Source of the DNA: Bacteroidales bacterium
GTDB taxonomy: Bacteria > Bacteroidota > Bacteroidia > Bacteroidales > UBA932
Length of the DNA stretch: 43,774 nucleotides
Direction of reading: 5' to 3'
Assembly: GCA_017447815.1 (NCBI GenBank)
Contig: JAFSMS010000032.1
Span: 1 to 43,774, forward strand
Within the stretch, counting starts at the first letter, position 1. Each line of letters opens with the position of its first letter. The position numbers and the translations under genes were made by a program. The notes below the pieces were generated by a model. That model saw only the letters and a list, made by a program, of their open reading frames with translations, ran no database searches and was not told where the DNA came from. Positions 1,676 through 17,671 of this stretch are shown in pieces.

Positions 1676-2074
1676 ATGAAAAAAATATTAACAATGGTTT
1701 TAGTGCTCTGTTTATCGAGCATAACCTCACCTTTTCTAAGAGGTCAAACTCCCCCCGATGATCCGGAGGAAACAATTATCATCATTGAGAAGAAGTCGGA
1801 AGAAAACAACCCTCCTTCAGGTCCTAAGGCTCCTTCTGCCATTCGCCTTCAAGCGTATTACGATTGTGCAAGTTCGGAAATCGTTGTTTCCGCACGCAAT
1901 GCGGGAACTAATATCAGCGTGTCCGTAGAAAACCTTGTCAGCGGAGAAAGTTCGCTGTTCAGCATTTCCGGGAACAGTGTCAGTTATATGCCCATATCCG
2001 GCACTTCAGGTTATTGGCTGCTCACATTTACTCTGGAAAACGGGTCTGTGTACATAGGTCAATTCACGTTGTAA
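1676..2074 (+). CDS. small secreted protein, DUF3244-like
   Basis: A 132-aa protein. I chose the ATG at 1676 because it starts directly with a signal peptide (MKKILTMVLVLCLSSITSPF, cleavage probable near LRGQ). The TTG at 1652 would lie inside the promoter box. After a low-complexity acidic/proline linker (DDPEETIIIIEKKSEENNPP), residues about 55-132 form a small all-beta domain (IRLQAYYDCASSEIVVSARN ... YWLLTFTLENGSVYIGQFTL). This looks like the Bacteroidales DUF3244 fold: short surface or periplasmic beta-sandwich proteins with terminal strand motifs of the type G-x-x-Y-x-G-x-F. It is first in the island and only 6 bp from the thioredoxin-like lipoprotein, so the two are co-transcribed. The biological role is unknown. 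Confidence 0.6.
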   Translation: MKKILTMVLVLCLSSITSPFLRGQTPPDDPEETIIIIEKKSEENNPPSGPKAPSAIRLQAYYDCASSEIVVSARNAGTNISVSVENLVSGESSLFSISGNSVSYMPISGTSGYWLLTFTLENGSVYIGQFTL

Positions 2075-2080
2075 TCGGTT

Positions 2081-2620
2081 ATGAGTCGGGTTCGCACGCT
2101 CATCTTGGTGGGACTGGTGTTGTGTCTGGGCAGTTGCTCCAGTCATCGCATTCGGAAGGAGCTGGAATCATTCTTGTCGCAGGAAGTATGTTTCCCGTCA
2201 TCCCTCACCTGTGTTTCCAACGCTTTCCAAGGGAGAGATATTCTATTGGACTCCATTCCCCTACTAGTGATATATGTGGACTCGACTCAATGCTCCACTT
2301 GTCGTGTCGGGCATTTGGCCGAATATATACCCTTGCAGGAGAAGGCTGTTCAGAGCAGAAAGTTCTTGTTGACAGTTATCCTCTCCCCTCCGGCAAACGA
2401 ATATGACCACATTGTTCATTTGTTGGATGTATATGATTACCCTTTCCCCATTTTTCTGGACAAGAATCATTCTTTCAGAAAGGAGAACTCTTTTATCCCG
2501 GGCGATGCTCGCTTCCATGCTTTTTTAATCGACCGCTCCCGTCACCCGGTAATGGTAGGCGATCCAACCCGGAGTGAAAAACTACGGCGGTTGTTTGAAC
2601 AAGCATTACAGCAATTATAA
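2081..2620 (+). CDS. thioredoxin-fold (TlpA-like) lipoprotein
   Basis: 179 aa. The N-terminal signal MSRVRTLILVGLVLCLGSCS has a lipobox LGSC with the lipidated Cys at 19, so it is a membrane-attached lipoprotein. Residues about 58-178 look like a reduced thioredoxin fold: a strand (PLLVIYVDS) leads into the redox-type motif C71-S-T-C74, then helices and the strand pair PFPIFLDKN and HAFLIDRSRHPVMVGDP. The family (TlpA/AhpC-TSA-like) carries out disulfide exchange in the periplasm. Its neighbour, the Cys-rich NVEALA peptide 27 bp downstream, suggests it could handle disulfides in that peptide (inference). A second, broken member of the same type lies at 11753-12038, next to the fourth peptide/propeller unit, which supports the functional link. 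Confidence 0.65.
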   Translation: MSRVRTLILVGLVLCLGSCSSHRIRKELESFLSQEVCFPSSLTCVSNAFQGRDILLDSIPLLVIYVDSTQCSTCRVGHLAEYIPLQEKAVQSRKFLLTVILSPPANEYDHIVHLLDVYDYPFPIFLDKNHSFRKENSFIPGDARFHAFLIDRSRHPVMVGDPTRSEKLRRLFEQALQQL

Positions 2621-2647
2621 TCGATAACCAATCAATAAAACCACATT

Positions 2648-2917
2648 ATGAAAACCAAAATCATAATTATTGCGGTTATCCTTCTTGCCGTCGCCGCCAT
2701 CACCTCGGTGAAAACCATTAGGAGCAACACTCCTTTGTTGGAAGCAAACGTAGAGTCGTTGGTCCAGAATGAAATCTTAGTCAGGTGCAATTCTTCGAGC
2801 CCGATTATTTATTGTTTTGTATTTTGTACGAAATGTAATAACCTGTGGGAAGTGCCCGGTGCGGTTGGACAATATATTCAAGGAAGCGCTTTATGTTCAT
2901 GCGGTACTCAATTGTAG
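2648..2917 (+). CDS. NVEALA-family membrane-anchored Cys-rich peptide (copy 1)
   Basis: 89 aa. An N-terminal hydrophobic segment (residues about 4-20, IIIIAVILLAVAAITSV) is followed by a short linker and the family signature block L-L-E-A-N-V-E-S-L-V at about 30-39. The C-terminal half is variable and holds six Cys. NVEALA is a Bacteroidales-restricted peptide family of unknown function, usually found in multi-copy clusters. The layout of membrane segment, conserved block and variable Cys-rich tail resembles a leader/core arrangement (inference). The gene overlaps the start of the propeller lipoprotein at 2899 by 19 bp, so the two are probably translationally coupled. Confidence 0.7.
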   Translation: MKTKIIIIAVILLAVAAITSVKTIRSNTPLLEANVESLVQNEILVRCNSSSPIIYCFVFCTKCNNLWEVPGAVGQYIQGSALCSCGTQL

Positions 2918-3909
2918 TAATATTAATGTGGTGTGTGGTCGGGTGTAGCATGGATACATCCTATCGTGAAGCAGCCTTCTTGGATGAGAGGGGAACGAAT
3001 ATACAGCAGATTGGCGAAGCATTGATGCTGGGTGCTCCGATAGACCTCTGTATGGCAGGCGATTATCTATTTGTTCTGGCGTATTCTCCGGAGTATTGGC
3101 TGCATGTTTATGACAAAAAAACAGGGGAAAAGGTCTCAGAAGCGATCCGGGTGGGCAGAGGCCCCGGAGAAGGAGTAAATATTGCATCAATGGATTTTTT
3201 TGTGCAAGAGAAGTGTTTATATATCTTTGACCGGGGCTTGCGTAAGACGCTGGTATATCAAATCGATGGAGATACGGGAAATGCCTCCTTTAAGGATGAG
3301 TTTCAACATCCTGCCGATGGTGTGATTCGAAAGTGTCATCATTTTGACAATGGAAAGTATTTATATGAAGGTTTTTTATCCGGAGATGATACGTTTACGC
3401 GATATACTCTCTCAAATGCTCAAAACGAATTGGACACTTATAGCGCATACCCAGAACTTAACAGCATGGACGACCGCTATGCTTTCATCTTAGGGGTGTC
3501 AAAAGCCTGTCCTGAAACGAGCAAGTTTGTTGCAGCAACGATGTTCGGTGCCGTTTTGGAGTGCTTTGACGTATCTGGAACCCATATTGAGCCTATTGCT
3601 ATCCGCCTGATTGACAAGCCGGAATTAGACTTTTCCACCTCCGTTATCCAAATGAAGGCGGGCAAGAAATATGGGTTTTCTACTTTGTGTCTGACCAAAG
3701 ATTTAATCTATGCAAATTATATAAATGGGACGGATCCGAATAATTTTAAGTCCATTGTTACATTCGATTGGCATGGAAGAGAAAAAACGAGATATACTGC
3801 AGATCGGAACATCCTAAGGATATGTCCGGGAGACAGTCCCGAGGAGTTATTTGGAGTTTCTTCCAGCCCCGAGATGGAATTCTCTCTTGTGAGAATTGCG
3901 ATGAAGTAA
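2899..3909 (+). CDS. 6-bladed beta-propeller lipoprotein (BF3164/TolB-like type), copy 1
   Basis: 336 aa from the ATG at 2899; an ATG two codons upstream (2893) is equally possible, whereas the long 2845 start would lose the signal peptide. The start MRYSIVVILMWCVVGCSMD has a lipobox VVGC. The rest is regular beta-rich repeats with the family hallmark around V-G-R-G-P-G-E-G, preceded by Y-D-K-K-T-G-E-K, typical of the Bacteroidales propeller families BF3164-like and DUF4934. Such lipoproteins are thought to be cell-envelope proteins of unknown ligand. It directly follows and overlaps NVEALA peptide copy 1. About 120 bp of its 3' part (3685-3804) recurs as a degraded copy at 5472-5587. Confidence 0.75.
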   Translation: MRYSIVVILMWCVVGCSMDTSYREAAFLDERGTNIQQIGEALMLGAPIDLCMAGDYLFVLAYSPEYWLHVYDKKTGEKVSEAIRVGRGPGEGVNIASMDFFVQEKCLYIFDRGLRKTLVYQIDGDTGNASFKDEFQHPADGVIRKCHHFDNGKYLYEGFLSGDDTFTRYTLSNAQNELDTYSAYPELNSMDDRYAFILGVSKACPETSKFVAATMFGAVLECFDVSGTHIEPIAIRLIDKPELDFSTSVIQMKAGKKYGFSTLCLTKDLIYANYINGTDPNNFKSIVTFDWHGREKTRYTADRNILRICPGDSPEELFGVSSSPEMEFSLVRIAMK

Positions 3910-4002
3910 TTTAAAGCGATAGACTAAAGCAGTTGTCTGTACAAACTTAATCAAAACTATCGTCATATTTGATCTCATTATTAATCATAAAACAAAAATC
4001 CA

Positions 4003-4305
4003 ATGAAAAAAGTTATTTTAGGAAGTCTCGTATTCTTGATAGCAATTATTGCTGTTGTTATTTCACATGAGAAGACGTTTAAAGCGGAGACAGCTGTATT
4101 ACAGGATAATATTGAAGCTTTGACGGGTTTCGAAGAAGAGTTTGAATTCCCACGCGGATATCCGTATCCAATTACATGTAAAGTTGTTGTTGGTTCTTTT
4201 CTGGGAATCCCTATACGTTGTGGGAGTACTGTGATTACATGTCAAGGTGGTGGCAGTGGTTGTAATGCGCAATCTTGCCCGTCGCATCCAGGATTGAATA
4301 ATTAA
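4003..4305 (+). CDS. NVEALA-family membrane-anchored Cys-rich peptide (copy 2)
   Basis: 100 aa. The membrane segment MKKVILGSLVFLIAIIAVVI is followed by the signature L-Q-D-N-I-E-A-L-T-G (about residues 33-42), an acidic stretch (EEEFEF), and a tail with five Cys plus glycine runs (QGGGSGC). It is separated from the previous propeller by 93 bp without a clear -7 box, and from the next propeller by only 4 bp. It has the same architecture as copies at 2648, 6892 and 10848, but the tail is nearly unrelated to theirs. Confidence 0.75.
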   Translation: MKKVILGSLVFLIAIIAVVISHEKTFKAETAVLQDNIEALTGFEEEFEFPRGYPYPITCKVVVGSFLGIPIRCGSTVITCQGGGSGCNAQSCPSHPGLNN

Positions 4306-4309
4306 ACGT

Positions 4310-5428
4310 ATGCGAATAGTTAGCATTTCCTTTGCCTTGGTACTTGTCGGTATGGTGGTCTGTTCCTGTGCCGAAAAGTCTGAGGTATCTTTGCAGGAAA
4401 CATTCCTGCCCTTCAAAACTAATCAGGAAAGGTTTATCCCGGATATCGTGGATGGCGTCGGCGTTGTTCCCCTGCATTTTGAAGGGTTGTCGTATTACAC
4501 GATAGACAAAATGATAGTCAGGGACGATTACTATTATCTGTTTGATTACAGACAAAAAAAAGTGATGGTATTTGACCGTTCTGGAAAAATGGAATATATC
4601 ATTGCAAGAGCGGGAAGGGGGCCTGGAGAATATCTTGATATGAAAAGTGCAACGGTTGACGGGCAAGATATCATTGTCCTGGATAATCAGATGCGTCAGA
4701 TTCACAGGTACAATAGGTTTACTGGAGAATATGTCCGTTCAAACAGATTGTCTTTTGCAGCCTGGGACGTAGAGGCGTTTAATGACGGAAGTCTTATTTT
4801 TGCCTTTGTCCCCATGCCTGGAGGCCATTTGGCTCATGCCCAGCCTGACAATATGGTCTTCATTACCGATGAAGAAGGACAGATACGCGAATGTTTGTTT
4901 CCGATAAAAAAGGGGTACTATGAGCCAATGAGTAAAGACAGTTATTTCCGCTCGGATGGGGAAAGAATTGTATTCAGTTCCTATGGGTTTGACGGATGTG
5001 TCACGTTTGACTGCAACGATTCGGGAAAACGAGAGAAAGTTATTATCGATTTTGGCAATGAAACGGCGAAAGGTGAGGAACGCAGGGAGTGGGCTGCCAT
5101 AGTGAAAAAGCGTTATTTGCATGACACACCACTTCCTTGCGGAGATTTGATGGGGATGCTGCTGGGTCTTGGTGACGAAACAATGAATTACTTTCTTTGT
5201 GACCGTCGGGGTGAAGATGGTTTTTTGCAAAATCCGTCAAGTCCGCAGAAAAACATGCTTTATATGCCTAAAGCGTCATACAAGGGAAAGATGTATTCGT
5301 TAATTGAGGCTGAGGAGTATAAGCAGTTGGCGTTGTCAGGCATATTGCCTTATGTCGGAACTATTCAGGATGTGGGAGAAGGAGATATGATATTGGCAGA
5401 ATATAGATTCAAGAATAATGCAGAGTGA
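4310..5428 (+). CDS. 6-bladed beta-propeller lipoprotein (DUF4934/BF3164-like), copy 2
   Basis: 372 aa. The N-terminus MRIVSISFALVLVGMVVCSC is a lipoprotein-type signal ending in VCSC. Blade-like repeats follow: YYYLFDYRQKKVMVFDRSGK, then the hallmark R-A-G-R-G-P-G-E-Y, then DIIVLDNQMRQIHRYNRFTG. This matches the Bacteroidales 6-bladed propeller families, including their length. It starts 4 bp after NVEALA copy 2, giving a tight two-gene unit. The ligand and function are not known; a surface or periplasmic binding role is inferred from the lipobox and fold. Confidence 0.75.
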   Translation: MRIVSISFALVLVGMVVCSCAEKSEVSLQETFLPFKTNQERFIPDIVDGVGVVPLHFEGLSYYTIDKMIVRDDYYYLFDYRQKKVMVFDRSGKMEYIIARAGRGPGEYLDMKSATVDGQDIIVLDNQMRQIHRYNRFTGEYVRSNRLSFAAWDVEAFNDGSLIFAFVPMPGGHLAHAQPDNMVFITDEEGQIRECLFPIKKGYYEPMSKDSYFRSDGERIVFSSYGFDGCVTFDCNDSGKREKVIIDFGNETAKGEERREWAAIVKKRYLHDTPLPCGDLMGMLLGLGDETMNYFLCDRRGEDGFLQNPSSPQKNMLYMPKASYKGKMYSLIEAEEYKQLALSGILPYVGTIQDVGEGDMILAEYRFKNNAE

Positions 5429-5471
5429 ATACGTGCAGATGTATCAGTAAACAGAAGTAAACTGCAAAACA

Positions 5472-5587
5472 TTGTGTCTGACCAAAGATTTAATGTGAAT
5501 TACATAGAGGGAACGGATTCGAATAGTTTTAAGTCCATCGTTACTTTTGTTTGGCGTGGAAGAGAAATCACGAGATATACTGCAGAT
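5472..5587 (+). pseudogene. relic of a beta-propeller gene 3' segment
   Basis: Bases 5472-5587 align with 3685-3804 inside propeller copy 1, from TTGTGTCTGACCAAAGATTT through ATATACTGCAGAT, with scattered substitutions and a net 4-base deletion. The reading frame is broken and neither end of the gene is present. Immediately after base 5587 the sequence switches to an O-antigen-ligase-type gene lacking its usual beginning. This is therefore the scar of a recombination or deletion between paralogous units of the island. Confidence 0.8.
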
Positions 5588-5597
5588 ATTTTTTCTC

Positions 5598-6875
5598 ATG
5601 GCGGCTTCCTGGCTCATTTATGAGTCAGGATACGGAATTCTGCAAGTATTAGGTTTGGCGCGTTCCGCTCATGTGCTCTTTTCCCTGACAGGCCATTTCC
5701 AAAACCCGGGCCCATTCGGCGGCTTTGTTGCAATGCTTATGTCCATTTGCTTGGCATACCTGTTATCGACAGAAAGAAATAATCTGTGGCAGCGTTGGAC
5801 AAAGTGGATTTGCGTCGTAGCCGCAGCCATGGGCTTTATCGTGCTTCCGGCGTCTATGAGCCGGGCCGGATGGCTTGGCCTGGCTGTTTCCTTGGGTGTG
5901 CTGGCTGTCCGGAATCAAAAGGTTCGAAAATGGTTCTCGGAGAAGCTGTTCCGGATGGCGGGAACATTGGCGGCTTTGATTCTCTTCGGGGTGGGCGCTT
6001 TCCTTCTAAAAAGGGATTCGGCACTCGGGCGTGTCCATGTCTGGCACATGGAACTTCTGGCCATGTTGAAGACGCCCATTACAGGTGCCGGGACCGGCCG
6101 GTTTGCATGGACTTATGGAGAAACACAGGCAGCCTATTTCTCTACAGCAGAACGTGCGCCGTGGGAGGCCAGGGTTGCGGGATGTCCGGAATATGCGTTC
6201 AATGAATATCTGGGCGCAGGTGTGGAATGGGGGATCCCGGGAATGCTTCTGCTGCTTGGTTTGTTTGTCTTCGTAATTGTTGTATTGGTGCGGAAAGACA
6301 ACCCTCTGGGATATGGAGCAGTAGATTTGGCGGTTTTTGCTTTCTTCTCCTATCCTTTCAGCCTGTGGCAGTTCCAATTTTGGACCGGGCTGTTTCTGGC
6401 TGTAGCGGCCAGCGCGGTCCTGAAAAATTGCAAATGGGCACCTTATGGCATTTTTCTGGCCGCGTTATGTGTTGTCTGCACAATAAAAAGGAATAAAACT
6501 TACGAACCGAATTATCGTGTGCTATATCAGCAAGGTTATGCGCTGTTTCAAATGGGAGAATATGAAAAAGCGCTGCCCCTTTTGCAAGAAGGAGCGGCGC
6601 AGTCCTGTGACCCCATGTTTCACAATATTATAGGACGATGCCAAGAAGTCCTTGGCAACAACATAGAAGCAGAGAAAGAGTATCTCCATGCCCACTACAT
6701 GGTCCCCGGCCGTCTGTATCCCCTGGTTTTGTTGCAAGAACTTTACCTGTCACAGGGTGAAACAAAGAAAGCCTCACACGTGCTTGAAACAATTCGAAGA
6801 ATCCCTGTCAATCCACGAAACAGCAATATGCAGTCCCTCCGGGAACGTGCAGAAAAGAATCATGTAAAACAATAA
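5598..6875 (+). CDS. O-antigen ligase/Wzy-type membrane protein with TPR tail, N-terminally truncated
   Basis: 425 aa from the ATG at 5598. The frame also opens upstream, but those codons come from the propeller relic read out of frame. The conserved family region begins almost at the new N-terminus: LTGHFQNPGPFGGFVA, then S-M-S-R-A-G-W-L-G, then a periplasmic loop (G-A-G-T-G-R-F-A-W-T-Y ... EYAFNEYLGAGVEWGIPG), each between hydrophobic helices. These are hallmarks of the O-antigen ligase (WaaL/Wzy) superfamily. Residues about 310-415 form TPR-like helices (GYALFQMGEYEKALPLLQEG), as in many Bacteroidetes members. Relatives normally have roughly 100 more residues and several TM helices at the N-terminus, so this is probably a truncated and perhaps inactive copy. 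It sits 16 bp before NVEALA copy 3. Confidence 0.7.
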   Translation: MAASWLIYESGYGILQVLGLARSAHVLFSLTGHFQNPGPFGGFVAMLMSICLAYLLSTERNNLWQRWTKWICVVAAAMGFIVLPASMSRAGWLGLAVSLGVLAVRNQKVRKWFSEKLFRMAGTLAALILFGVGAFLLKRDSALGRVHVWHMELLAMLKTPITGAGTGRFAWTYGETQAAYFSTAERAPWEARVAGCPEYAFNEYLGAGVEWGIPGMLLLLGLFVFVIVVLVRKDNPLGYGAVDLAVFAFFSYPFSLWQFQFWTGLFLAVAASAVLKNCKWAPYGIFLAALCVVCTIKRNKTYEPNYRVLYQQGYALFQMGEYEKALPLLQEGAAQSCDPMFHNIIGRCQEVLGNNIEAEKEYLHAHYMVPGRLYPLVLLQELYLSQGETKKASHVLETIRRIPVNPRNSNMQSLRERAEKNHVKQ

Positions 6876-6891
6876 ATAAAATAGTTCAATT

Positions 6892-7197
6892 ATGAAAAAA
6901 GTATTAATCCTGTTTTTGCCCTTAGTAATGATTCTCCTTGCGAGTATGATTATTGTTACTAGATCAGTTGGTAATGACAATAATACCACCTTGTGGAAAG
7001 CCAATTTGGAGGCCCTTTCCAAGGATGAAGCACCATATTGCCATAGTGGAGGGCCAGGGGCGACAGACTGCTCTATCACTGCCGGGACAAATATAGCTGG
7101 TATTGGTATCTCGGGCGGTTGTAGTGTTTCATGTGGAGGAAATACCTATGCTTGTTGTAGTCTGCGCTGTACCTGTGTTTCGTATATAGGAGTCTGA
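6892..7197 (+). CDS. NVEALA-family membrane-anchored Cys-rich peptide (copy 3)
   Basis: 101 aa. The membrane segment is at residues about 4-24 (VLILFLPLVMILLASMIIV), and the signature L-W-K-A-N-L-E-A-L-S-K at about 34-44. The tail is Gly/Cys-rich with eight Cys, including a CC pair (SGGCSVSCGG ... YACCSLRCTC), the most Cys-dense of the four copies. It stops 4 bp before the next propeller gene. The Cys/Gly-rich tail resembles small disulfide-rich secreted peptides; whether the membrane part is cleaved is unknown. Confidence 0.75.
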   Translation: MKKVLILFLPLVMILLASMIIVTRSVGNDNNTTLWKANLEALSKDEAPYCHSGGPGATDCSITAGTNIAGIGISGGCSVSCGGNTYACCSLRCTCVSYIGV

Positions 7198-7201
7198 ACC
7201 G

Positions 7202-8227
7202 ATGATTAAAAGAAAGGACATGAGAACCGGCACTGCTTTTTTGACTTTGTTGTTGATTATCAGTTGTGCCCGGAATGGTTCCGTAATGACGAAGAACACG
7301 ATTGTGGCTGATATTGAAAAAGCAATTCCCCTTTCACTTGATGTTGATGATGGATTACGGCTTTCCGATGTACAACTTGGTATGATAGATGATGCCTGGG
7401 TCAAAGATACGTTGTTAATGCTATTCGGCAACAACGCATTGCATGCTTTTTCTACCCAAACAGGGAAACTGTCAATGACCTTTTCCAGACAGGGTCGCGG
7501 GCCGTTGGAATATATTCGAATTTGGGATTATGGTGCCGATGATGACGGGATCTATATTTATGATATTGACGGGAAACAAATGCTGTTTTTTTTATGGGAT
7601 GGATCTTTCAAGAAAATGGAAAAACTAACGGGACGGTCGGCTGACAATCCCTTTCAAGCCATTATCCGGGCTCCATGGGGGAAAGGATATGTTGGGAAGA
7701 GGATATATGGGACACCAGAAGTTCCGGAACTGTCATCCTATGACGAGCATTTCCGATATGTTTCGCCTATAGGGGCTTACACACTGCGTTCCGGACTCAA
7801 ACTATGGCGTCAATTATATCTCGGAAGTGATGGGGATGTGTTGTATAACCGCTATTTCTCGAATGAAGTTTTAAGCCTGACATCGGATTCTCTGGCAGTA
7901 AAGTATATAGTGCATTTCCCGCATCGGAATGTCCCCGAAATGGACGATGAATATGATGCATTGGAGTTGTTAGGCAAAAAAAATACTCCCTATGCCGTGA
8001 TTATGTCCCAAATTAAAGAAACGGACAAATATTTCGGCTTTCAATTCGCAGCAGAATCAAATCGGTATTATGCCGTTTATGACAAACTCTCTGGTAACTG
8101 CAAAGTATATCTTCCTATTGTTGCAAAACAGGAAGTGCAAACGGTATTTCTCAATGATAACATCTTGTTTACCATTGCATCGGATGAAAGTGGCAGTTAT
8201 GTTTATCAAGTGAAACTAGTTACATGA
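7202..8227 (+). CDS. 6-bladed beta-propeller lipoprotein, copy 3
   Basis: 341 aa from 7202; an internal ATG at 7220 gives a more standard signal (MRTGTAFLTLLLIISCARNG, lipobox IISC). Blade-like repeats follow with the hallmark Q-G-R-G-P-L-E-Y, a variant of the R-G-P-G-E motif of the other copies, and Y-I-Y-D-I-D-G-K-Q-M. Its stop overlaps the start of the signal peptidase/transglutaminase fusion (ATGA at 8224-8227), so peptide, propeller and peptidase are likely made as one coupled unit. Confidence 0.75.
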   Translation: MIKRKDMRTGTAFLTLLLIISCARNGSVMTKNTIVADIEKAIPLSLDVDDGLRLSDVQLGMIDDAWVKDTLLMLFGNNALHAFSTQTGKLSMTFSRQGRGPLEYIRIWDYGADDDGIYIYDIDGKQMLFFLWDGSFKKMEKLTGRSADNPFQAIIRAPWGKGYVGKRIYGTPEVPELSSYDEHFRYVSPIGAYTLRSGLKLWRQLYLGSDGDVLYNRYFSNEVLSLTSDSLAVKYIVHFPHRNVPEMDDEYDALELLGKKNTPYAVIMSQIKETDKYFGFQFAAESNRYYAVYDKLSGNCKVYLPIVAKQEVQTVFLNDNILFTIASDESGSYVYQVKLVT

Positions 8228-10788
8228 GCATCCCTCTCCCTAAAATAATCTGCCGGACAATATACCTGCTGATTATCTTGGCTGTCCTGTATGGAATGTG
8301 TCGGATTTTGATTGTCGACCGCTTTCATGTGGGTGGAAATTCCATGGAGCCAACTTTGAATGCCGGAGACCCGCTGTGGGTGGAGAAATGGACGCTGGGG
8401 GCAAGGATTTATACCTCTTTCGACTTTGATACATCTGAGCTCTCATCGTTCCGGATGCCGGGTCTCGGGCGTCTGAGCCCCGGCGACATTGCGGTTTTCA
8501 ACAGTCCGGACGGGGGACAACCCGGGAAGATCGGGTTTAAAATCAATTATGTCTATGCCAAACGTATTATCGGCACACCGGGAGATACCGTACAGATTAT
8601 CGGTGGGTTCTATCACAATTCGTCTGTCCCCGGCCGGCTTCTGTGCCCTTCGGAGGGTCAGGCCCGTCTGGGAATGATGCCGGCTGCGGAGGCCGATTCC
8701 GTAAAGATGTACCGGGAAAGCATCAACGATGTCCCTTGGAGTGCCCGTAGCTTCGGCCCGATGGCCGTTCCGGCCAAAGGTTGTTCCATGACATTTGATT
8801 CTGTGACAGCGGCGGCCTATGCCATGGCAGTGGAATATGAATGCGGAAGGCGCCCGGAGGAGGGGGAAACCTATACATTCAAGAAAAACTGGTATTTTTT
8901 CGGTGGAGACTATGTCCTGAATTCGCGTGACAGCCGCTACTTCGGATTGATTCCGGAAGATTACATTGTCGGCCGGGTCCTTTCACTGGCACATCGGGAC
9001 AGGAGAGCAAGGGGTCTTCGTAAAAAAGACACTATGCTGGAGGAAGCCCTGGCATTTTCCGGGACCAACCGGGGAGAGTTGGAAAAAGTGCTTTTTCATT
9101 ATCGTGGGAATCCGGAAAAACTTCGGGCGGCTGAGTGGCTTATCCGGAACATGCCCTGCCACTATGGATACGCACCGTCCGCCGCCATGGACAGCGCCAA
9201 AGCGGTCTTGCAGGATATCCGCATAGGAAAAACCGTAGAGGAAGACAGAAAACGGCGCTGTTTGTCTGTTAACGAATCGGCGCTGACAAAAATCTATGAC
9301 AGCCGGGTTATCACGGCGGAATACCTCATCGACAATATTGACCGGGCGTTTAAGGTGCGGGACAAACGGCCATGGAATCGGGCACTGTCCTTTGATGACT
9401 TTTGCGAAATGCTGCTTCCTTATCGGGTGGGGACGGAACCGCTGGAGAACTGGCGTGCAAAGTACGAGGCCCGTTATGGCTATGTCCTGGACACCCTCTA
9501 CAGGGGAAGGGATATCATGGTGGCCTGTGATTCCCTCAACAAGGCTTTGGAGCAGAAATTCCTGTTGGAGGAGCGCTTGCAGGCTCCCGACCTGGGTCCG
9601 CTTTTCCTGCTGGACACCAGAGTCGGCGGCTGCCAGGAAGTGAGCGGATTCTCCTTGTACCTGCTCCGGTCGCTGGGAATCCCGGCGGCGACGGATTTCT
9701 TTCGGAAAGACGTTGTCCATCTTTGGACTGTAGCGGCCGACACGACTGGGCGGAAAGAGTTCCTTCGTCTGTTTGCCGAATACAGCGGAGATCCACAAGT
9801 GCGGGGCAAAGTGGATTTTCGAACCAAGGGAAAAGTGTATCGGAAAACGTTCGCACCGGAGCAGGGATGCCTGTTCAAGGATGTATCGGCCGAATATTTC
9901 GGGGATTTCACCTGCGAAGTGCCCCTGGAAAAAAGAACATCGGAAACAGTATGGCTGGGTATGTTTACCGGCGCCCGCTGGCTGCCGATGGAGCCCGGGA
10001 AGACAGAGGGAAAGAAGGTGTCCTTTTCTTCTTTCGAGCCGGGAATGGTTTATGCTCCTGTGAACGAGAATGGGAGAGAAATGGGATTTCCGTTTATCCG
10101 GTACCCGGATGGTTCTTTGGAAAGATTTGTCCCTGGTCCTTTTCAAGACGGTGTGAGCGTATCGCGCAAGACTCGCCTAACAGACCGCATCAGAGGGGTC
10201 ATGGCCGAGAGTGCCGGCACTATTATCGAAGGTGCCCTTGATGCGGATTTTTCTGACATCGTCTGGAGACATACCCTGCCGGGGTCCCACAACCAGTATA
10301 ATCATCTCTATCCGGAGCAGAAGTTGCGTTTTATACGTCTTAGTCCCCCAGGGGGCAAGCCGTTGCAGATGGCGGAAATCCGGGTTTTCCGGGACAGGGA
10401 AAGGACAGAGTTTATTCCATTTGTGGCTGAGGACGTATTGCGGGCCCTGGTGGATTCGGACGAGCTGACATATTACAGGGCATCGGCTCCGGATGTCCCT
10501 GCCGTGCTGGATTTGGGGCGGGAGATATACGTCGCCATGCTGGAGTGGACGCCCCGAAATGATGACAACTTCATCCGCAGAGGAGATGTATATGAACTTC
10601 AGTATAACAACGGCCCGTCCGGCTGGGTTGGATTGGGCCGACAAGAGGCGGCAGACACGGTTTTGCACTGGAATTCCGTCCCGCAGCATGCGTTGCTCCG
10701 CTTGCACGACCTTACCCGCGGCCGGGAGGAAGATGCCTTCATTTTCCGGGATGGGCGGCAGCAATTCGTTTCGTGGAATACCCCGTAA
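8224..10788 (+). CDS. signal peptidase I / transglutaminase-like / discoidin-like fusion protein
   Basis: 854 aa. Residues 12-31 form a membrane anchor. A type I signal peptidase (S26) domain follows: G-G-N-S40-M-E-P-T carries the nucleophile Ser, Y-A-K113-R-I-I-G-T-P-G-D the general base Lys, and the box-E region at 227-245 (GGDYVLNSRDSRYFGLIPED) is intact. About residues 300-600 look like a transglutaminase/papain-like domain with Cys470 (V-G-G-C-Q-E), His499 (V-V-H-L-W) and Asp506 in plausible catalytic order. The C-terminal 150 or so residues are beta-rich and discoidin-like (IRLSPPGGKPLQMAEIRVFR; PAVLDLGREIYVAMLEW). Separate Bacteroidales proteins pair transglutaminase with discoidin domains; fusion to a signal peptidase is unusual. 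Overlap with propeller copy 3 suggests a job in processing or crosslinking island products (inference). Confidence 0.7.
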   Translation: MSIPLPKIICRTIYLLIILAVLYGMCRILIVDRFHVGGNSMEPTLNAGDPLWVEKWTLGARIYTSFDFDTSELSSFRMPGLGRLSPGDIAVFNSPDGGQPGKIGFKINYVYAKRIIGTPGDTVQIIGGFYHNSSVPGRLLCPSEGQARLGMMPAAEADSVKMYRESINDVPWSARSFGPMAVPAKGCSMTFDSVTAAAYAMAVEYECGRRPEEGETYTFKKNWYFFGGDYVLNSRDSRYFGLIPEDYIVGRVLSLAHRDRRARGLRKKDTMLEEALAFSGTNRGELEKVLFHYRGNPEKLRAAEWLIRNMPCHYGYAPSAAMDSAKAVLQDIRIGKTVEEDRKRRCLSVNESALTKIYDSRVITAEYLIDNIDRAFKVRDKRPWNRALSFDDFCEMLLPYRVGTEPLENWRAKYEARYGYVLDTLYRGRDIMVACDSLNKALEQKFLLEERLQAPDLGPLFLLDTRVGGCQEVSGFSLYLLRSLGIPAATDFFRKDVVHLWTVAADTTGRKEFLRLFAEYSGDPQVRGKVDFRTKGKVYRKTFAPEQGCLFKDVSAEYFGDFTCEVPLEKRTSETVWLGMFTGARWLPMEPGKTEGKKVSFSSFEPGMVYAPVNENGREMGFPFIRYPDGSLERFVPGPFQDGVSVSRKTRLTDRIRGVMAESAGTIIEGALDADFSDIVWRHTLPGSHNQYNHLYPEQKLRFIRLSPPGGKPLQMAEIRVFRDRERTEFIPFVAEDVLRALVDSDELTYYRASAPDVPAVLDLGREIYVAMLEWTPRNDDNFIRRGDVYELQYNNGPSGWVGLGRQEAADTVLHWNSVPQHALLRLHDLTRGREEDAFIFRDGRQQFVSWNTP

Positions 10789-10847
10789 AAGGCAACATTC
10801 CTAGGGAAGTTCAAACAAACTTGACAATAACAATCAAACATCAAAAT

Positions 10848-11114
10848 ATGAGAAAGGTACAAAAAATTATCGTTTTCTTGGCGGCACTGTTCGCAATTGC
10901 ATGTGGTTTCTCTTTTCAGGCGAATGACGATAGGCCATTTATTCAGCAAGACATTGAAGTACTAACCGGGAGTGAAGTGGGAGAGTATAGCTGCTCTGTT
11001 ACATCCAATTGTTTTTCTTTCGGCCAACAAACAGGGTCTGTCTCATGCACTGGTAAAAATTGCAAAAGAGGTACCGGATGGGTAGAATGTGACGGTCATC
11101 GGACAAATTGTTAA
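10848..11114 (+). CDS. NVEALA-like membrane-anchored Cys-rich peptide (copy 4, divergent)
   Basis: 88 aa. The ATG at 10848 opens directly on the hydrophobic segment (VQKIIVFLAALFAIACGFSF), so it is preferred over upstream in-frame starts. The signature is diverged: F-I-Q-Q-D-I-E-V-L-T-G-S-E at about 31-43, matching copy 2 in E-x-L-T-G. The tail holds six Cys in a hydrophilic context (SVSCTGKNCKRG, VECDGHRTNC). The IAC-G at the end of the hydrophobic segment could also be a lipobox. It is followed one base later by the ATG of the next propeller gene. Confidence 0.65.
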   Translation: MRKVQKIIVFLAALFAIACGFSFQANDDRPFIQQDIEVLTGSEVGEYSCSVTSNCFSFGQQTGSVSCTGKNCKRGTGWVECDGHRTNC

Positions 11115-11115
11115 T

Positions 11116-11763
11116 ATGAAAGATTCTCTGAGACTGCTTGTCGTATCTACTGCCCTTATTTCTATGACAATTTCGTGTGCAAATCACGAAATTGTCGTTC
11201 AAAAGAGTTATATTAACAAAATGTCTATTTATCCGGATTCGTCCTTCGTCGGTGATATAAGAGGCCTTCAATTCAATAATAACCACTTGTTTTTCCTGGA
11301 CATAAACCGGAGATCTTTATTGATACTTGATAGAGAATTGTCGGCTATCCATTCTGTATCACGAGGCGGGCGGTCTAAAGAGGAGTTATTGGAGCCATTC
11401 TCCTTTACCGTATCCGGAGATTCTGTCTTTGTGATAGATTTTGGCAACCTGAAGATGAAGAGTTACATTAAGGGAGAATTCATAGGCGAAAAATCAATTC
11501 CGGTCAATACCAGGGATCAACGTTTTGTTAAAGACGGGAATCTGTTTTTTCTGCCGGTTAGGGATTCAGATGCAAGTGTCGTCAAGACGTCATTGTCGGG
11601 TTCTCCGATAACGGTTCTTCAGGCAGAGGAATTTTTCTCCCCGGTTAAAACCATGACAATGAATTCATGTCACATTTTATCCTATGAGGGAAATCTGGCA
11701 ATCATTCCTGAAGCATTTGCTTTCAACAGTTCAGAAACCCAGTTAGAAGTATATGAAATGTAG
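11116..11763 (+). CDS. short 6-bladed beta-propeller-like lipoprotein, copy 4 (possibly internally deleted)
   Basis: 215 aa from the ATG at 11116, chosen because it gives a clean lipoprotein signal (MKDSLRLLVVSTALISMTIS followed by Cys). The repeats resemble the other propellers (LFFLDINRRSLLILDRELSA; S-R-G-G-R-S-K-E-E-L replaces the R-G-P-G-E hallmark). The other three copies are 336-372 aa, so about a third is missing. The last residues (SETQLEVYEM) look like the natural closing strand, which suggests an internal rather than a terminal deletion, or a compact variant. The stop overlaps the start of a broken thioredoxin-like gene (11753). Confidence 0.6.
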   Translation: MKDSLRLLVVSTALISMTISCANHEIVVQKSYINKMSIYPDSSFVGDIRGLQFNNNHLFFLDINRRSLLILDRELSAIHSVSRGGRSKEELLEPFSFTVSGDSVFVIDFGNLKMKSYIKGEFIGEKSIPVNTRDQRFVKDGNLFFLPVRDSDASVVKTSLSGSPITVLQAEEFFSPVKTMTMNSCHILSYEGNLAIIPEAFAFNSSETQLEVYEM

Positions 11764-12038
11764 TCAATTGTTCATCATTTCTTTTTGTCTGATAACCATA
11801 ACCTCCTGTTACCAAGTAAAGAGATGTCTCATTTGTGGATTCTTTGTTTGTTTTCAATGATAAGGAAAAACCGCGAGTTATACGTCATCGTCTAAAATTC
11901 ATTCCAACCCCAGTTTTTATGGTCCTGGATGAGAATAACGTGGTCCGCTATCTTCATAGACCAACGGCCGCAGATGTCCCAATGTCGGTAACAATGCTAT
12001 TGAAGAAACATTGTTCTCCCCGTGCTGTCCCCGATTAA
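11753..12038 (+). pseudogene. broken thioredoxin-fold lipoprotein gene
   Basis: An ATG at 11753, overlapping the end of propeller copy 4, starts a lipoprotein signal (MKCSQLFIISFCLITITSCY) that runs to a stop at 11858-11860. In another frame, about 11835-12038 encodes the C-terminal part of a thioredoxin-like domain (LKFIPTPVFMVLDENNVVRY ... SVTMLLKKHC), similar in plan to the end of the intact protein at 2081. The CxxC-bearing middle is absent. I read this as a TlpA-like gene that lost its centre and frame by deletion. The GTG at 11835 could give a 67-aa product, but it would lack a signal peptide and active site. Confidence 0.65.
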
Positions 12039-12070
12039 TCACCGGTACATTCAGCCTTGTTTTTCGAAGG

Positions 12071-12078
12071 TATTTTTG
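12071..12078 (+). promoter_or_regulatory. -7 box before the efflux operon
   Basis: TATTTTTG matches TAnnTTTG and lies 18 bp before the ATG at 12097 (3 bp before the alternative ATG at 12082). No TTTG at the usual -33 spacing was seen. It marks the probable start of the TolC-MFP-RND-RND transcription unit and fits the sharp change in base composition here. Confidence 0.4.
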
Positions 12079-12096
12079 CCAATGAAGGTTTTACAT

Positions 12097-13575
12097 ATGG
12101 ATAGAATCAGATTCGTATTGCTACTGTCGCGTTTGTTGTGGGTGCACACGGTGCAGGCGCAACAGCTCACGCTCAGCGAGGCCATTGCCGCCGCACGCAC
12201 CGGCTCGGTGCAGGCTTTGGAGGCCCGGCGTCAGTTTGTTTCCACCTATTGGGCTTGGCGGGCCTATCAGGCCAGCCGGCTGCCGTCCTTATACCTATAC
12301 GGTAATCTGGGCAATTTCAACCGCTCGCTCACCTTGCTCCAAAGTCCGGATGACGGAACCATGAAGTATGTGGCTTCCAATAACATGCAAAACGGCATCG
12401 GCCTTCAGGCACGACAGAACATTCCATTCACGGGAGGAACGCTGTACATTTACACGGATCTGAACCGGATCGACCAGTTCGGGGCATCCCGTGGCGTCAC
12501 CTGGTACAGCCAGCCTGTGACCATTTCCTACCAGCAGCCGCTTTTTGCCTACAACCCGTTCAAATGGGACAAACTCATCCAGCCCAAGGAATACGAACGG
12601 GGACGGCGCATCTATGTGGAGGCTATGGAGCAGATTGCCCTGGATGCCGTAAAAGCTTGGTTTTCCGTGCTTACGACCCGTGAAAATGAAATATTGGCAC
12701 AGGCTAATTATGAAAATACGGCCAAGATGTACCGTGTGGCCGGTGAGCGGCTGAAACTGGGCACGGTGACGCGGGACGAATATCTCCAGTTGGAACTCCG
12801 GATGCTCAACGACAGCCTTTCCATCGGCGAGAACGCCATCAAAGTCCGTGAAGCGCAGATGGCCCTGAATTCGCTGTTGGGTTATGGCGACGCAGCCAAG
12901 GTGATTCCCGTCCTGGAGGAAGACCTTCCTGTGCTTCAGGTCGATTATGAAACGGTTCTGGAGAAGACCCTTGAAAATTCCCGCTTTGGGCTCGATAATG
13001 AGATTAACCTCCTGAACGCACGTTCCAATGTGGAAAAAGCCAAGGCGGAGCGGGGGATTACGATGAGTTTCCATGCCCGCTTCGGCCTGTCCAAGTCGGG
13101 CGTGACGCTTCCCCAGGCCTATCGGAATCCGTTGGACCAGGAAGTGTTCGGGCTCAGTTTCAGCGTGCCCATCTTTGACTGGGGACAGGGACGTGGCCGG
13201 GTAGAGAAAGCCAAGGCGGCCGAGGATGTGGTGAAAGCCCAGGTAGAGCAAAACGAGAACGACCATCGGCGGAAAGTTTTCTCGGCGGTGGGACAGTTCA
13301 ACAACCAGCGGGGCCAATGCCTGGTTTCCCGCCGGGCGCTATCGATTGCCGGAGAACGCTATTCGCTGGTAATGGACAAGTTCCGTGCTGGGAACGCCTC
13401 CGTACTGGAACTGAACACCGCCCGGACGGAGAATGACAATGCCCGTAAACAGTATCTGAGCGACCTGTCCCTCTTCTGGACCAGTTATTACACGCTCCGG
13501 AAATACACGCTTTTCGATTTCCTGTCCGGAGAAGACATCGCCATAGACGAAAACGAAATGATTTTGGGAAAATGA
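12097..13575 (+). CDS. TolC-family outer membrane efflux protein
   Basis: 492 aa from the ATG at 12097 (an ATG at 12082 is also possible). The signal peptide MDRIRFVLLLSRLLWVHTVQ is followed by AQQLTLSEAI, the usual mature start of TolC-like proteins, and the typical run of long amphipathic helices (LNARSNVEKAKAERGITMSF) with S-V-P-I-F-D-W-G-Q-G-R-G-R-V-E-K, a hallmark of the outer-membrane factor repeat. It forms the outer-membrane exit duct for a tripartite pump. The stop overlaps the start of the adaptor gene (ATGA at 13572-13575). Substrate unknown. Confidence 0.85.
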   Translation: MDRIRFVLLLSRLLWVHTVQAQQLTLSEAIAAARTGSVQALEARRQFVSTYWAWRAYQASRLPSLYLYGNLGNFNRSLTLLQSPDDGTMKYVASNNMQNGIGLQARQNIPFTGGTLYIYTDLNRIDQFGASRGVTWYSQPVTISYQQPLFAYNPFKWDKLIQPKEYERGRRIYVEAMEQIALDAVKAWFSVLTTRENEILAQANYENTAKMYRVAGERLKLGTVTRDEYLQLELRMLNDSLSIGENAIKVREAQMALNSLLGYGDAAKVIPVLEEDLPVLQVDYETVLEKTLENSRFGLDNEINLLNARSNVEKAKAERGITMSFHARFGLSKSGVTLPQAYRNPLDQEVFGLSFSVPIFDWGQGRGRVEKAKAAEDVVKAQVEQNENDHRRKVFSAVGQFNNQRGQCLVSRRALSIAGERYSLVMDKFRAGNASVLELNTARTENDNARKQYLSDLSLFWTSYYTLRKYTLFDFLSGEDIAIDENEMILGK

Positions 13576-14648
13576 AAACTCTTTTTTGGAAATTGCTCCC
13601 GCTGACAGCCCTCTTCTCGTGTGGAATGGTGGGAGGGAACACAGAGAGCGGAGCCGATGGCCGCCTTCAGCAAACCCCGCTGGTGAATCAGGTGGAAGTC
13701 ATTACATTGGAAAAGGCCGATTTCGCCAAGGAACTGCTGTCCAACGGGAAACTGTCGGCATCGGCCCGGGCCAGCCTGTCGTTTTCCACGTCAGGCCCGT
13801 TGTCGGAGGTGAATGTGCGCAGCGGCCAGCATGCCGGCAAAGGCAGCGTCCTGGCCCGGCTGGACAGGCCGGATTTGGCCTTGGCGCTGGAGTCGGCTCA
13901 AATAACGCTGGAAAAGGCTCAGATGGACCTGTACGACTATTTGGTCGGGCAGGGCTATCCGGCACGCGACACTTTGTCGGTCCCGGCCGATCTGCTGGCG
14001 ACGGCCAAAATGAAATCCGGTTACGCGAATGCCCGGAACGCCCTTGCGCGGGCCCGGCAGGATATGGATGGGACGGTGCTCCGCGCCCCTTTCTCCGGAC
14101 GAGTCGCCGACGTAAAACTCCGTCGGCACGACCTTGCCGGCACCGAACCTTTCTGCACCCTGATTGACGATACGGCTTTTGATGTGGATTTCACGGTGAT
14201 GGAGTCGGAGTACGGCTTCCTGTCCGAGGGACTTCCGGTGACGGTTACGCCCTATGCCGACGGCAGTTTTTCCTGCCGGGGCAAAATCGTTTCCATCAAC
14301 CCTTCCGTGGACCGCAGCGGACAAATCAGTGTCCGGGCCAGGGTCCCCGGCGACAGGCGCCTGCTGGACGGGATGAATGTAAAAGTTACGGTGGCGCGGA
14401 TGCTGCCCGGCCAGTTGGTCGTGCCCCGCAGCGCTGTCGTCATCCGGGACAATCTGGATGTGCTGTTTACCTACACCGATGACGGAAAGGCTCATTGGAC
14501 TTATGTAAATATTGTCGCATCCAATTCCACCAGCCATGTCGTGACGGCCAATAAGGAGCGCGGTGCCTCCCTCTCGGAGGGAGACCGGGTTATTGTAAGC
14601 GGAAATTTGAACCTTGCCGACGGGTCTGATGTCGTGCTGTCGCAATAA
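13572..14648 (+). CDS. RND efflux periplasmic adaptor (membrane fusion protein)
   Basis: 358 aa lipoprotein: MKTLFWKLLPLTALFSCGMV has the lipobox LFSC. The lipoyl/barrel-sandwich half is seen in SFSTSGPLSEVNVRSGQHAG and V-L-A-R-L-D, then a helical hairpin (ALESAQITLEKAQMDLYDYL ... ARNALARARQDM) and the second half T-V-L-R-A-P-F-S-G-R-V-A-D-V, followed by beta-barrel and membrane-proximal strands to the end. These are the standard parts of HlyD/AcrA-type adaptors linking pump to TolC. It overlaps the genes on both sides (4 bp upstream, 1 bp downstream), so all four proteins are probably made from one message. Confidence 0.88.
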   Translation: MKTLFWKLLPLTALFSCGMVGGNTESGADGRLQQTPLVNQVEVITLEKADFAKELLSNGKLSASARASLSFSTSGPLSEVNVRSGQHAGKGSVLARLDRPDLALALESAQITLEKAQMDLYDYLVGQGYPARDTLSVPADLLATAKMKSGYANARNALARARQDMDGTVLRAPFSGRVADVKLRRHDLAGTEPFCTLIDDTAFDVDFTVMESEYGFLSEGLPVTVTPYADGSFSCRGKIVSINPSVDRSGQISVRARVPGDRRLLDGMNVKVTVARMLPGQLVVPRSAVVIRDNLDVLFTYTDDGKAHWTYVNIVASNSTSHVVTANKERGASLSEGDRVIVSGNLNLADGSDVVLSQ

Positions 14649-17600: not shown

Positions 17601-17671
17601 GGACCCTGGTAAGCCTGTTTGTGGTTCCGGCCGTGTATTATTCCGTGTATGTCCGAAAAGAACGCGCATAA
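14648..17671 (+). CDS. RND family efflux permease, first of two
   Basis: 1007 aa, normal RND length. It opens with MLKHIIDRPITVTMALLVVV, the typical first TM helix, and the porter-domain motif R-L-L-P-V-S-L-I-P-E-V-D-I-P-Y. The TM4 region reads M-M-A-D396-N-T-I-I-L-I-D, where the first Asp of the Asp pair of AcrB is kept and the second is Asn. The TM10 region reads G-I-V-I-N-D-S-I-L-K-L-D, with Asn where AcrB has its relay Lys (alignment by eye). The end V-V-P-A-V-Y-Y-S-V-Y is typical. Proton-driven export from inner membrane or periplasm is the family role. The stop lies 20 bp inside the second RND gene. Confidence 0.88.
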   Translation: MLKHIIDRPITVTMALLVVVVLGLVSIRLLPVSLIPEVDIPYITVQASAPAMSAREMDRRVVTPLRGQLIQVSALQDIVCEARDGSATLKLSFNHGADIDLLFIEVNEKIDRAMGLLPDMDRPKVVKASATDIPAFFINVTLPSGGSFTELSRFCREVIAKRIEQLPEVAMVDMSGTVDEQILVLPDAGKLTQLGLTVTQLDEAIRDSHIRLGSLTIRDGEYRYSVKFDAKAGSPEDIAAIWLRSGDRLLQIGDVARVSLVPAKRTGLVRSDGQAAVTLAVIKQSDARMGDLKKGIRELLDQFKADYPLLDFQPTRDQTALLEFSIRNLVWNIVLGVLLACLVIFLFMQDFRSPALVSLTMPSALVFSMLIFYLVGLSLNVISLSGLLLGVGMMADNTIILIDNITSRWQRDGDLRTAVLEGTREVMGPMLSSVLTTCAVFVPLVFVSGIAGALFYDEAMAVTIVLFTSYVITITVIPVFYWWWYRKMPAFRAHPLLRRISVEGALHRWDHRRMEWWLEHRSWSGVLVGAGIAGMLLCFALMPRERLPQLSQTESILHLDWNRRLTVEENERRTEGLEAVLGEEVLEHTALVGAQEFVLGHSGDQGISELQLYFRCPDMTTLRSVQARLETYLVRNAPEAAWQFTPAGNIFDMVFADNQAPLMARIRPVRDPEIRLESLQEALADIRTALPGVEVKPAGTRTDILFSADAQKMALYGVSYNELATMLRQALNENRLFSLVQGTRSLPVITGTDRESLQEILSETFLERDGRRIPAMELMRQGYSEDLKTLVSGAEGSYYPLELQLKDSQVRPAMASIRKALRSGGSFDVRFSGSWFSSRELVKELVWILLIAIALLYLILASQFESLLQPVIILAELVIDISASLAVLWLLGESLNLMSLIGLVVVTGIVINDSILKLDTINRLRTAGMALREAVLTGSRRRMKAIVMTSLTTILAVVPFLARGSMGADLQYPMSLVIIVGMVVGTLVSLFVVPAVYYSVYVRKERA

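Follow-up and report, generated by a model that had tools for sequence, protein, structure and literature searches.

A candidate maturation and export system for cysteine-rich NVEALA-type peptides, with a linked RND pump, in Bacteroidales

Peptides of the NVEALA family (PF14055) resemble the precursors described here in their leader motif, their size and their occurrence in Bacteroidales; the family takes its name from this motif, and no system, pump or partner is described for it in the papers we searched. The precursors are encoded in a 43,774-nucleotide stretch from a Bacteroidales bacterium (GenBank assembly GCA_017447815.1, contig JAFSMS010000032.1; hereafter the window, meaning the whole stretch). 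Its positions 1676-12038 hold, all on one strand, four pairs of an NVEALA-type peptide precursor gene (PEP) and a propeller lipoprotein gene (PROP), together with genes for a CxxC thioredoxin-like lipoprotein (TRX), a fusion of a signal peptidase (SP) with a transglutaminase-like protein (TG), and a Wzy_C protein of the O-antigen-ligase type (OAG). These genes are followed directly, on their own strand, by those of a tripartite RND pump (12100-20669), in which an outer-membrane channel (OEP), a periplasmic adaptor (MFP) and RND subunits are found together. A reading of the island made from the sequence alone (the sequence-only reading) had ended the unit at 12038, which is too early, as OEP, MFP, RND1 and RND2 continue to 20669; that reading had missed the pump.

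Three described kinds of system come closest in parts. Class II microcins and other double-glycine peptides are exported by an ABC transporter with a C39 peptidase. Class II microcin systems share with the island a conserved leader, a variable mature part, a dedicated peptidase, an exporter and a linked partner gene; the island differs from double-glycine systems in its NVEALA rather than GG leader, Sec-type entry, S26 peptidase and RND pump, and a double-glycine/ABC system was rejected, as no ABC transporter or C39 match was found among the island proteins scanned. Exosortase/PEP-CTERM systems combine an O-glycosylation ligase with a C-terminal PEP-type anchor. They resemble the island in envelope sorting with a Wzy_C-type ligase, the island OAG giving a weak TIGR03097 match (21.7 bits against a cut-off of 188.1); this candidate was also rejected, as the island proteins scanned gave no exosortase match and the window tails have no C-terminal anchor. 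Tripartite RND efflux pumps consist, as the pump here does, of OEP, HlyD-type MFP and ACR_tran proteins; the island RND differs from other such pumps in forming its own clade and in being tied to propellers, TRX, SP, TG and OAG.

A similar published gene group is that of Bacteroides thetaiotaomicron BT0662 (O-antigen ligase), BT0664 (propeller), BT0667 (signal peptidase) and BT0669 (RND adaptor), named in the iron-response table of PMC10434189, where the BT0662-BT0669 rows carry second-column values of 0.11-0.44. By gene names only, an O-antigen ligase, a 6-bladed propeller, signal peptidase I and an RND adaptor stand there within eight gene numbers; the parts of PMC10434189 that we drew on do not treat them as a system. 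BF3164 occurs in one paper, PMC1887533. Neither a description of the system nor such a peptide secretion route was found in the papers searched (by NVEALA, Pfam names and accessions, system words and B. thetaiotaomicron gene numbers; few subscription papers and no bioRxiv preprints among them).

As far as gene content and order can indicate, our comparison of loci gives good support to a multi-gene peptide system that is conserved and has a pump linked to it. The best explanation of the window is that this system spans about 2081-20669 and is probably dedicated to maturing and exporting small disulfide-bonded peptides. The sequence-only reading had likewise proposed a dedicated exported-peptide system, a view to which co-occurrence and covariation lend support, with processing, secretion and tail-propeller binding as its predicted parts.

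The gene set recurs across Bacteroidales. A Pfam NVEALA hit is present in 16 of the 294 genomes searched in the order, and 33 stretches fetched around NVEALA hits in the order and the window's genus contained TRX in 19 cases, with SP, TG and OAG recurring. TRX, for which up to eight candidates per genome were scored, was present in 27 of the 294 genomes at E<=0.001 and in 20 at E<1e-30, and strong TRX coincided with NVEALA in 13 genomes (1.1 expected). Eleven TRX genomes had played no part in building the profile; four of them have a Pfam NVEALA hit, and two more (G091 and G097) have divergent peptides detected by our own profile. In the window's genus, TRX (E<=0.001) was found in 17 of 121 genomes, and 14 of 20 regions from twelve of its TRX genomes held recognised peptides.

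A scan of named genomes was seeded by TRX alone, and the best 80 of 94 confirmed stretches gave 79 distinct loci. Propellers were found in 76 of these, peptides in 73, SP or TG in 57, OAG in 34, and MFP or RND in 22, the flanks of at most 10 kb meaning that loci may end before the pump. Co-occurrence of peptides and propellers, on which the sequence-only reading had been staked beforehand, is thus the rule at these loci, and TRX, SP, TG and OAG, which it had counted as island members, are recurrent partners. Nearly all labelled genes (691 of 700) lie on the TRX strand; the gene following a peptide gene is a propeller in 127 and TRX in 21 of 179 cases; and the typical order, seen in parts and variably (e.g. 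L248, L264, L273), is PEP-PROP-TRX-PEP-PROP-TG-SP-OAG-MFP-RND. Overlapping gene sets occur in records of Parabacteroides, Bacteroides, Phocaeicola vulgatus ATCC 8482, B. fragilis and Tannerella forsythia. Families of such peptides may thus be secreted by a major part of the bacteria in the human gut. TRX also matched eight plasmid records; of the two inspected, one showed another context and one was unannotated.

The pump belongs to a recognisable clade. We searched the 294 genomes with window RND1 and scored the best two candidates in each; the limited number of candidates per genome (two for RND, eight for TRX) makes absences soft. A near class, with 30-46% identity and E values no worse than 1.7e-138, comprises 50 places in 48 genomes and stands apart from all other matches, which, three fragments aside, have 28% identity or less. 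Clade RND is shared by 13 of the 16 NVEALA genomes and 18 of the 20 strong-TRX genomes. We searched 8 kb to either side of 49 clade loci (the window included, the G142 place not) and found system genes at 32: a propeller in 24, and TRX, SP, TG, OAG or a peptide in 20. The G091 place is counted among those without system genes, though its adjoining stretch L136 holds them. In 20 control regions around far-class RND genes, searched whole and up to 20 kb (two were shorter), a propeller was found in 3 and TRX, SP, TG, OAG or PEP in none. Within the 24 clade loci with propellers, SP, TG or OAG accompany five of seven with an NVEALA peptide versus two of 17 without (p=0.009), in stretches of unequal length, some of which stop short of peptides further along the contig; the small sample suggests that the processing genes serve the NVEALA leader. 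Neighbouring proteins of ~1000 and ~360 aa that had been taken for SusC and FecR were RND and HlyD proteins where scanned, and SusC/SusD uptake neighbours were accordingly discarded as a candidate. For this clade of pumps, peptides are proposed as substrates.

The pairing of peptide and propeller was examined in 175 pairs, reduced to 168 by removal of duplicates and to 156, from 72 genomes, by requiring a recognised motif and 15 or more tail residues. Between genomes, tail similarity correlates with the identity of the adjacent propellers (Pearson 0.69); when peptides were shuffled among propellers within a genome, the mean was 0.20 and the maximum 0.44, and none of 1000 permutations reached 0.69. 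Leader similarity gave 0.03, a value reached by 617 of 1000 permutations, and this control argues that tail plus propeller is the unit. The nearest foreign propeller carries its genome's most similar tail in 119 of 156 cases (52.8 expected). Tail similarity therefore tracks the paired propeller within genomes, which is covariation of the kind that the sequence-only reading had called for. Leader similarity is higher within genomes (0.47) than between them (0.32), versus 0.14 and 0.13 for tails. In two Bacteroides fragilis records (L295 and L297), the pair genes differ at one locus, the main aligned blocks being 87-97% identical.

The precursors themselves have a uniform leader and a variable tail. 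Pfam NVEALA, with its gathering cut-off of 27 bits, misses three of the four window peptides, so it was rejected as a sufficient detector and an iterated profile of our own was built; NCBIfam gave nothing above cut-off for peptides, propellers or TRX. Our profile was applied leniently (E of 0.01) and gave no label in any of the 20 control RND regions. From 251 peptide open reading frames (ORFs), exclusion of 15 without the motif and of duplicates and short tails left 222 distinct precursors. The leader continues beyond the membrane segment as LSDLxLxNVEALAxGE, and N-[VI]-E-A-L-A-x-G-E follows the hydrophobic core at a distance of 11-18 residues (5th-95th percentile, median 15); because the loose motif pattern admits only certain residues, it biases motif frequencies upward. 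The median tail is 37 residues long, and Cys makes up 8.3% of tails, compared with 0.6% in leaders and a background of 1.26% in other named-locus proteins. The number of tail Cys is even in 189 of 222 precursors (cluster-averaged 73.2 of 93; 53 of 71 singleton clusters, p=3.9e-5), which suggests disulfides.

In the window, the sequence-only reading had described a conserved N/D-[VIL]-E-x-L block followed by tails with 5-8 Cys, and both features are there: NVESLV, NIEALT, NLEALS and DIEVLT in PEP1-4, with 6, 5, 8 and 6 tail Cys, counts that have a chance of 9e-4 to 7e-7 at background Cys content. Its assignment of all four to NVEALA holds for PEP3 at the Pfam cut-off and for the whole set by the iterated profile; PEP1, PEP2 and PEP4 fall below the Pfam cut-off or have no hit. 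Two genus-mates have between them three tails in which all six tail Cys of PEP1 are conserved, and a peptide of L348 conserves the five of PEP2. A CTGPK-type Cys tail is joined to NVEALA leaders in two loci (L060, L252) and to a plain signal peptide in a third (L360), so the tail looks like the functional part; some tail families are common to different genera. L360 (4933-8991) encodes tandem exported Cys peptides with plain signal peptides beside propellers, TRX and a pump, and L191, L192, L213 and L221 have other small exported Cys-peptide families beside propellers and a clade RND pump.

The processing enzymes are recognisable to different degrees. SP exceeds the TIGR02227 cut-off (71.2 versus 47), and its Ser and Lys regions, with the motifs SM and KR that we take to hold the catalytic residues, align with the solved type I signal peptidase 9nlo_A; contig C41 of the window genome encodes another signal peptidase I. 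The SP-TG fusion occurs in the window and in L059, and the other profile-examined loci have two separate genes. TG has a weak transglutaminase-core match (17 bits versus a cut-off of 23), an invariant Cys and His, and a carbohydrate-binding-like C-terminal end. In TRX, Cys19 and the CxxC (C71, C74) are invariant in 13 aligned sequences, and the profile is nearest to StoA/ResA in the Protein Data Bank (PDB). OAG has 10 relatives among the fetched loci. Ala at -3 and -1 of the NVEALA-type motif fits a type I signal peptidase site. The c-regions of usual signal peptidase substrates lie closer to the membrane segment, and the greater distance here would suit a special enzyme.

We propose that a Sec-type hydrophobic segment, as the sequence suggests, brings the precursors into the periplasm, with the conserved leader 11-18 residues beyond this segment; that the dedicated signal peptidase and its transglutaminase-like partner would cut or trim at the AxA-like motif; that the tail would fold with disulfides, as even Cys counts and TRX suggest, and may receive a glycan from the Wzy_C protein; that the OEP-MFP-RND1-RND2 pump, by its genomic linkage, would take the mature tail from the periplasm and expel it; and that each propeller lipoprotein, given the pairwise covariation, would recognise its cognate tail and act most probably as an immunity protein or a receptor. 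Secretion, the cleavage site, disulfides, glycosylation and propeller binding are what we infer from sequence in this scheme. Whether it amounts to an undescribed class of peptide secretion appears to us evenly balanced; such a class would comprise Sec-delivered, disulfide-bonded hypervariable peptides with a private SP, TG, TRX and Wzy_C protein, a dedicated RND clade, a cognate propeller as immunity protein or receptor, and a tail-propeller cassette exchangeable behind shared leaders. Families known mainly by name (NVEALA and the DUF5128/TolB_like propellers) would gain a testable function.

Several observations weigh against a dedicated system of this kind. No system gene was found at 17 of 49 clade loci, many of them cut by contig ends, though at least five (L188, L193, L196, L197, L198) have 6 kb or more on both sides; 35 of 48 clade-RND genomes have no Pfam NVEALA hit, and three NVEALA genomes have no strong TRX. 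The overlap of TRX with NVEALA in 13 genomes is partly circular, as the TRX profile was partly built from NVEALA loci. TRX regions of G158, G246 and G301 contain propellers and no recognised peptide, those of G095 and G227 no recognised partner at all, and a TRX homologue on the Phocaeicola dorei plasmid pBdorCL06T03-4 (L365, 5110-5655) lies beside an aminotransferase gene with no annotated system genes shown. The Spearman coefficient for tail versus propeller is only 0.18 over all between-genome pairs, compared with the Pearson value of 0.69, so the signal sits in similar pairs; covariation of neighbours can, moreover, arise from co-inheritance alone, without binding. In the window, the Cys count of PEP2 is odd, and PROP4 and the 5' end of OAG are damaged.

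What the same system might do is a separate matter. It is possible, and we hold it tentatively, that it is a toxin-immunity set in which the tails would be antibacterial, the propellers would protect the producer, and orphan propellers would be leftover immunity genes. The matching of variable tails to propellers fits this, as do the pair genes differing at one locus between the two B. fragilis records and the patchy occurrence in the window's genus. It would also account for the 113 of 220 long propellers in named loci that stand outside the pair set (either their pair was filtered out or the 450 bp upstream held no recognised peptide); at least 40% identity to another genome's paired propeller was found for 45 of these 113 and for 55 of the 107 paired ones. 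Propellers are, however, large for immunity proteins, and a regulator stands beside several loci, which fits antagonism less well.

That regulator leads to a signalling role, which we consider somewhat unlikely: the tails would be pheromones or niche signals, the propellers surface receptors, and a linked membrane regulator would read the result. Some loci are adjoined by a gene for a 330-390-aa membrane protein that ends in a winged helix (Trans_reg_C), matched above cut-off in L280 (E=2e-8) and below it in L309 (E=3e-4) and L274 (E=0.05), and the sharing of tail families by several genera would suit signals. On the other hand, the 1675 bases upstream of the window island hold no ORF of regulator size, the regulator candidate of L043 has no Pfam match, and several different tails per locus exceed the needs of a simple signal. 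Between the two roles, we weakly favour antagonism with immunity over signalling. The winged-helix membrane proteins near peptide genes in L280 (8524-9522) and L309 (4638-5750) are possible one-component regulators.

It is unlikely that the peptides stay in the cell envelope and serve the propellers as ligands or subunits while the RND pump, a mere neighbour, exports something else. Loci with propellers and a pump and no recognised NVEALA peptide are common, and the precursor does have a membrane segment, as retention would predict; the specificity of the RND clade, the close packing and the shared strand speak for a functional link, and some non-NVEALA pump loci encode other exported Cys peptides. 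That ordinary lipoproteins, a spare signal peptidase and an efflux pump are chance neighbours is highly improbable: the parts do come from broad families and the window copy is partly decayed, but they recur in many genera on one strand, tail-propeller covariation contradicts chance, and the nearly empty control RND regions, the clade loci and the TRX-seeded loci together led us to reject chance clustering.

The features of the window are collected in Table 1.

Table 1. Coordinates of the peptide island and the adjoining pump in the window
Feature	Position	Strand	Evidence or remark
Small exported protein, 132 aa, no family recognised	1676..2074	+	Directly 5' of TRX; membership uncertain
TRX, thioredoxin-like lipoprotein with CxxC	2081..2620	+	Cys19 and C71/C74 invariant; StoA/ResA nearest in PDB
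PEP1, NVEALA-type precursor, 6 tail Cys	2648..2917	+	Own profile E=1e-10; Pfam E=0.006, 16.7 bits
PROP1, 6-bladed propeller lipoprotein	2893..3909	+	TolB_like 35.2 bits and DUF5128 34.5 bits, both above cut-off
PEP2, NVEALA-type precursor, 5 tail Cys	4003..4305	+	Own profile E=1e-9
PROP2, propeller lipoprotein	4310..5428	+	DUF5128 77.6 bits
3'-end remnant of a fifth propeller gene	5493..5587	+	84% identical to 3710-3804 over 95 bp
OAG, Wzy_C (O-antigen-ligase type) membrane protein with TPR	5547..6875	+	Wzy_C 51.2 bits; TPR slightly below cut-off
PEP3, NVEALA precursor, 8 tail Cys	6892..7197	+	Pfam NVEALA 28.3 bits, above cut-off
PROP3, propeller lipoprotein	7217..8227 (alternative start 7202)	+	DUF5128 54.2 bits
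SP-TG, type I signal peptidase, transglutaminase-like and C-terminal carbohydrate-binding-like domain	8224..10788	+	Peptidase_S26 81 bits; TIGR02227 above cut-off
PEP4, NVEALA-type precursor, 6 tail Cys	10848..11114	+	Own profile E=1e-8; no Pfam NVEALA hit
PROP4, shortened propeller lipoprotein	11116..11763	+	DUF5128 35.7 bits
Decayed small gene; start resembles a lipoprotein and end a thioredoxin, each in another frame	11757..12038	+	Three-frame reading, by eye
OEP, outer-membrane channel of the pump	12100..13575	+	OEP 113 bits
MFP, periplasmic adaptor, HlyD type	13572..14648	+	Own profile; relatives in L058/L062/L137 are HlyD in Pfam
RND1, inner-membrane pump, system-linked clade	14648..17671	+	30-46% identity to clade places
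RND2, second RND subunit	17649..20669	+	ACR_tran 318 bits; RND pairs recur in relatives

All four pairs named by the sequence-only reading are present. The close spacing that it gave, an overlap or a gap of at most 4 bp, applies to pair 2 (4-bp gap), pair 4 (1 bp) and, from start 7202, pair 3 (4 bp); from start 7217 the gap of pair 3 is 19 bp, and pair 1 overlaps by 25 bp. The propellers were assigned to the DUF5128 family (cut-off 22.9 bits) and to the 6-bladed propeller lipoproteins of PF17170 and PF15869. All four exceed the DUF5128 cut-off, with the qualification that PROP4 (215 aa) covers only positions 39-203 of 321. The lipobox Cys is invariant in PROP1-4, and the propeller profile gave no PDB match by sequence. 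OAG and SP-TG are placed between the pairs; OAG proper begins near 5589, its 5' end being fused to the propeller remnant. This propeller 3' end before OAG, and the short PROP4 with its decayed gene, are two scars suggesting recombination; the segment 11835-12035 within the decayed gene has no family match. The protein at 1676-2074 matches nothing in Pfam or NCBIfam, and a similar-sized ORF at the corresponding place in L060 shows no detectable similarity to it. A fifth DUF5128 propeller of the window genome lies off the island (G000:C17, L061 15140-16282), with no NVEALA peptide recognised nearby.

Further enzymes were seen at individual loci. A MauE/DoxX membrane protein is encoded beside TRX in L057 (5503-6612) and is plausibly its electron (redox) partner. 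Proteins resembling the formylglycine-generating enzyme lie inside or adjoining the system in L135 (12588-13664) and L055 (1881-2642), and in Bacteroides congonensis (L312, 12859-14748) a glutaminase-A-like protein (DUF4964/DUF5127) stands between TG and SP.

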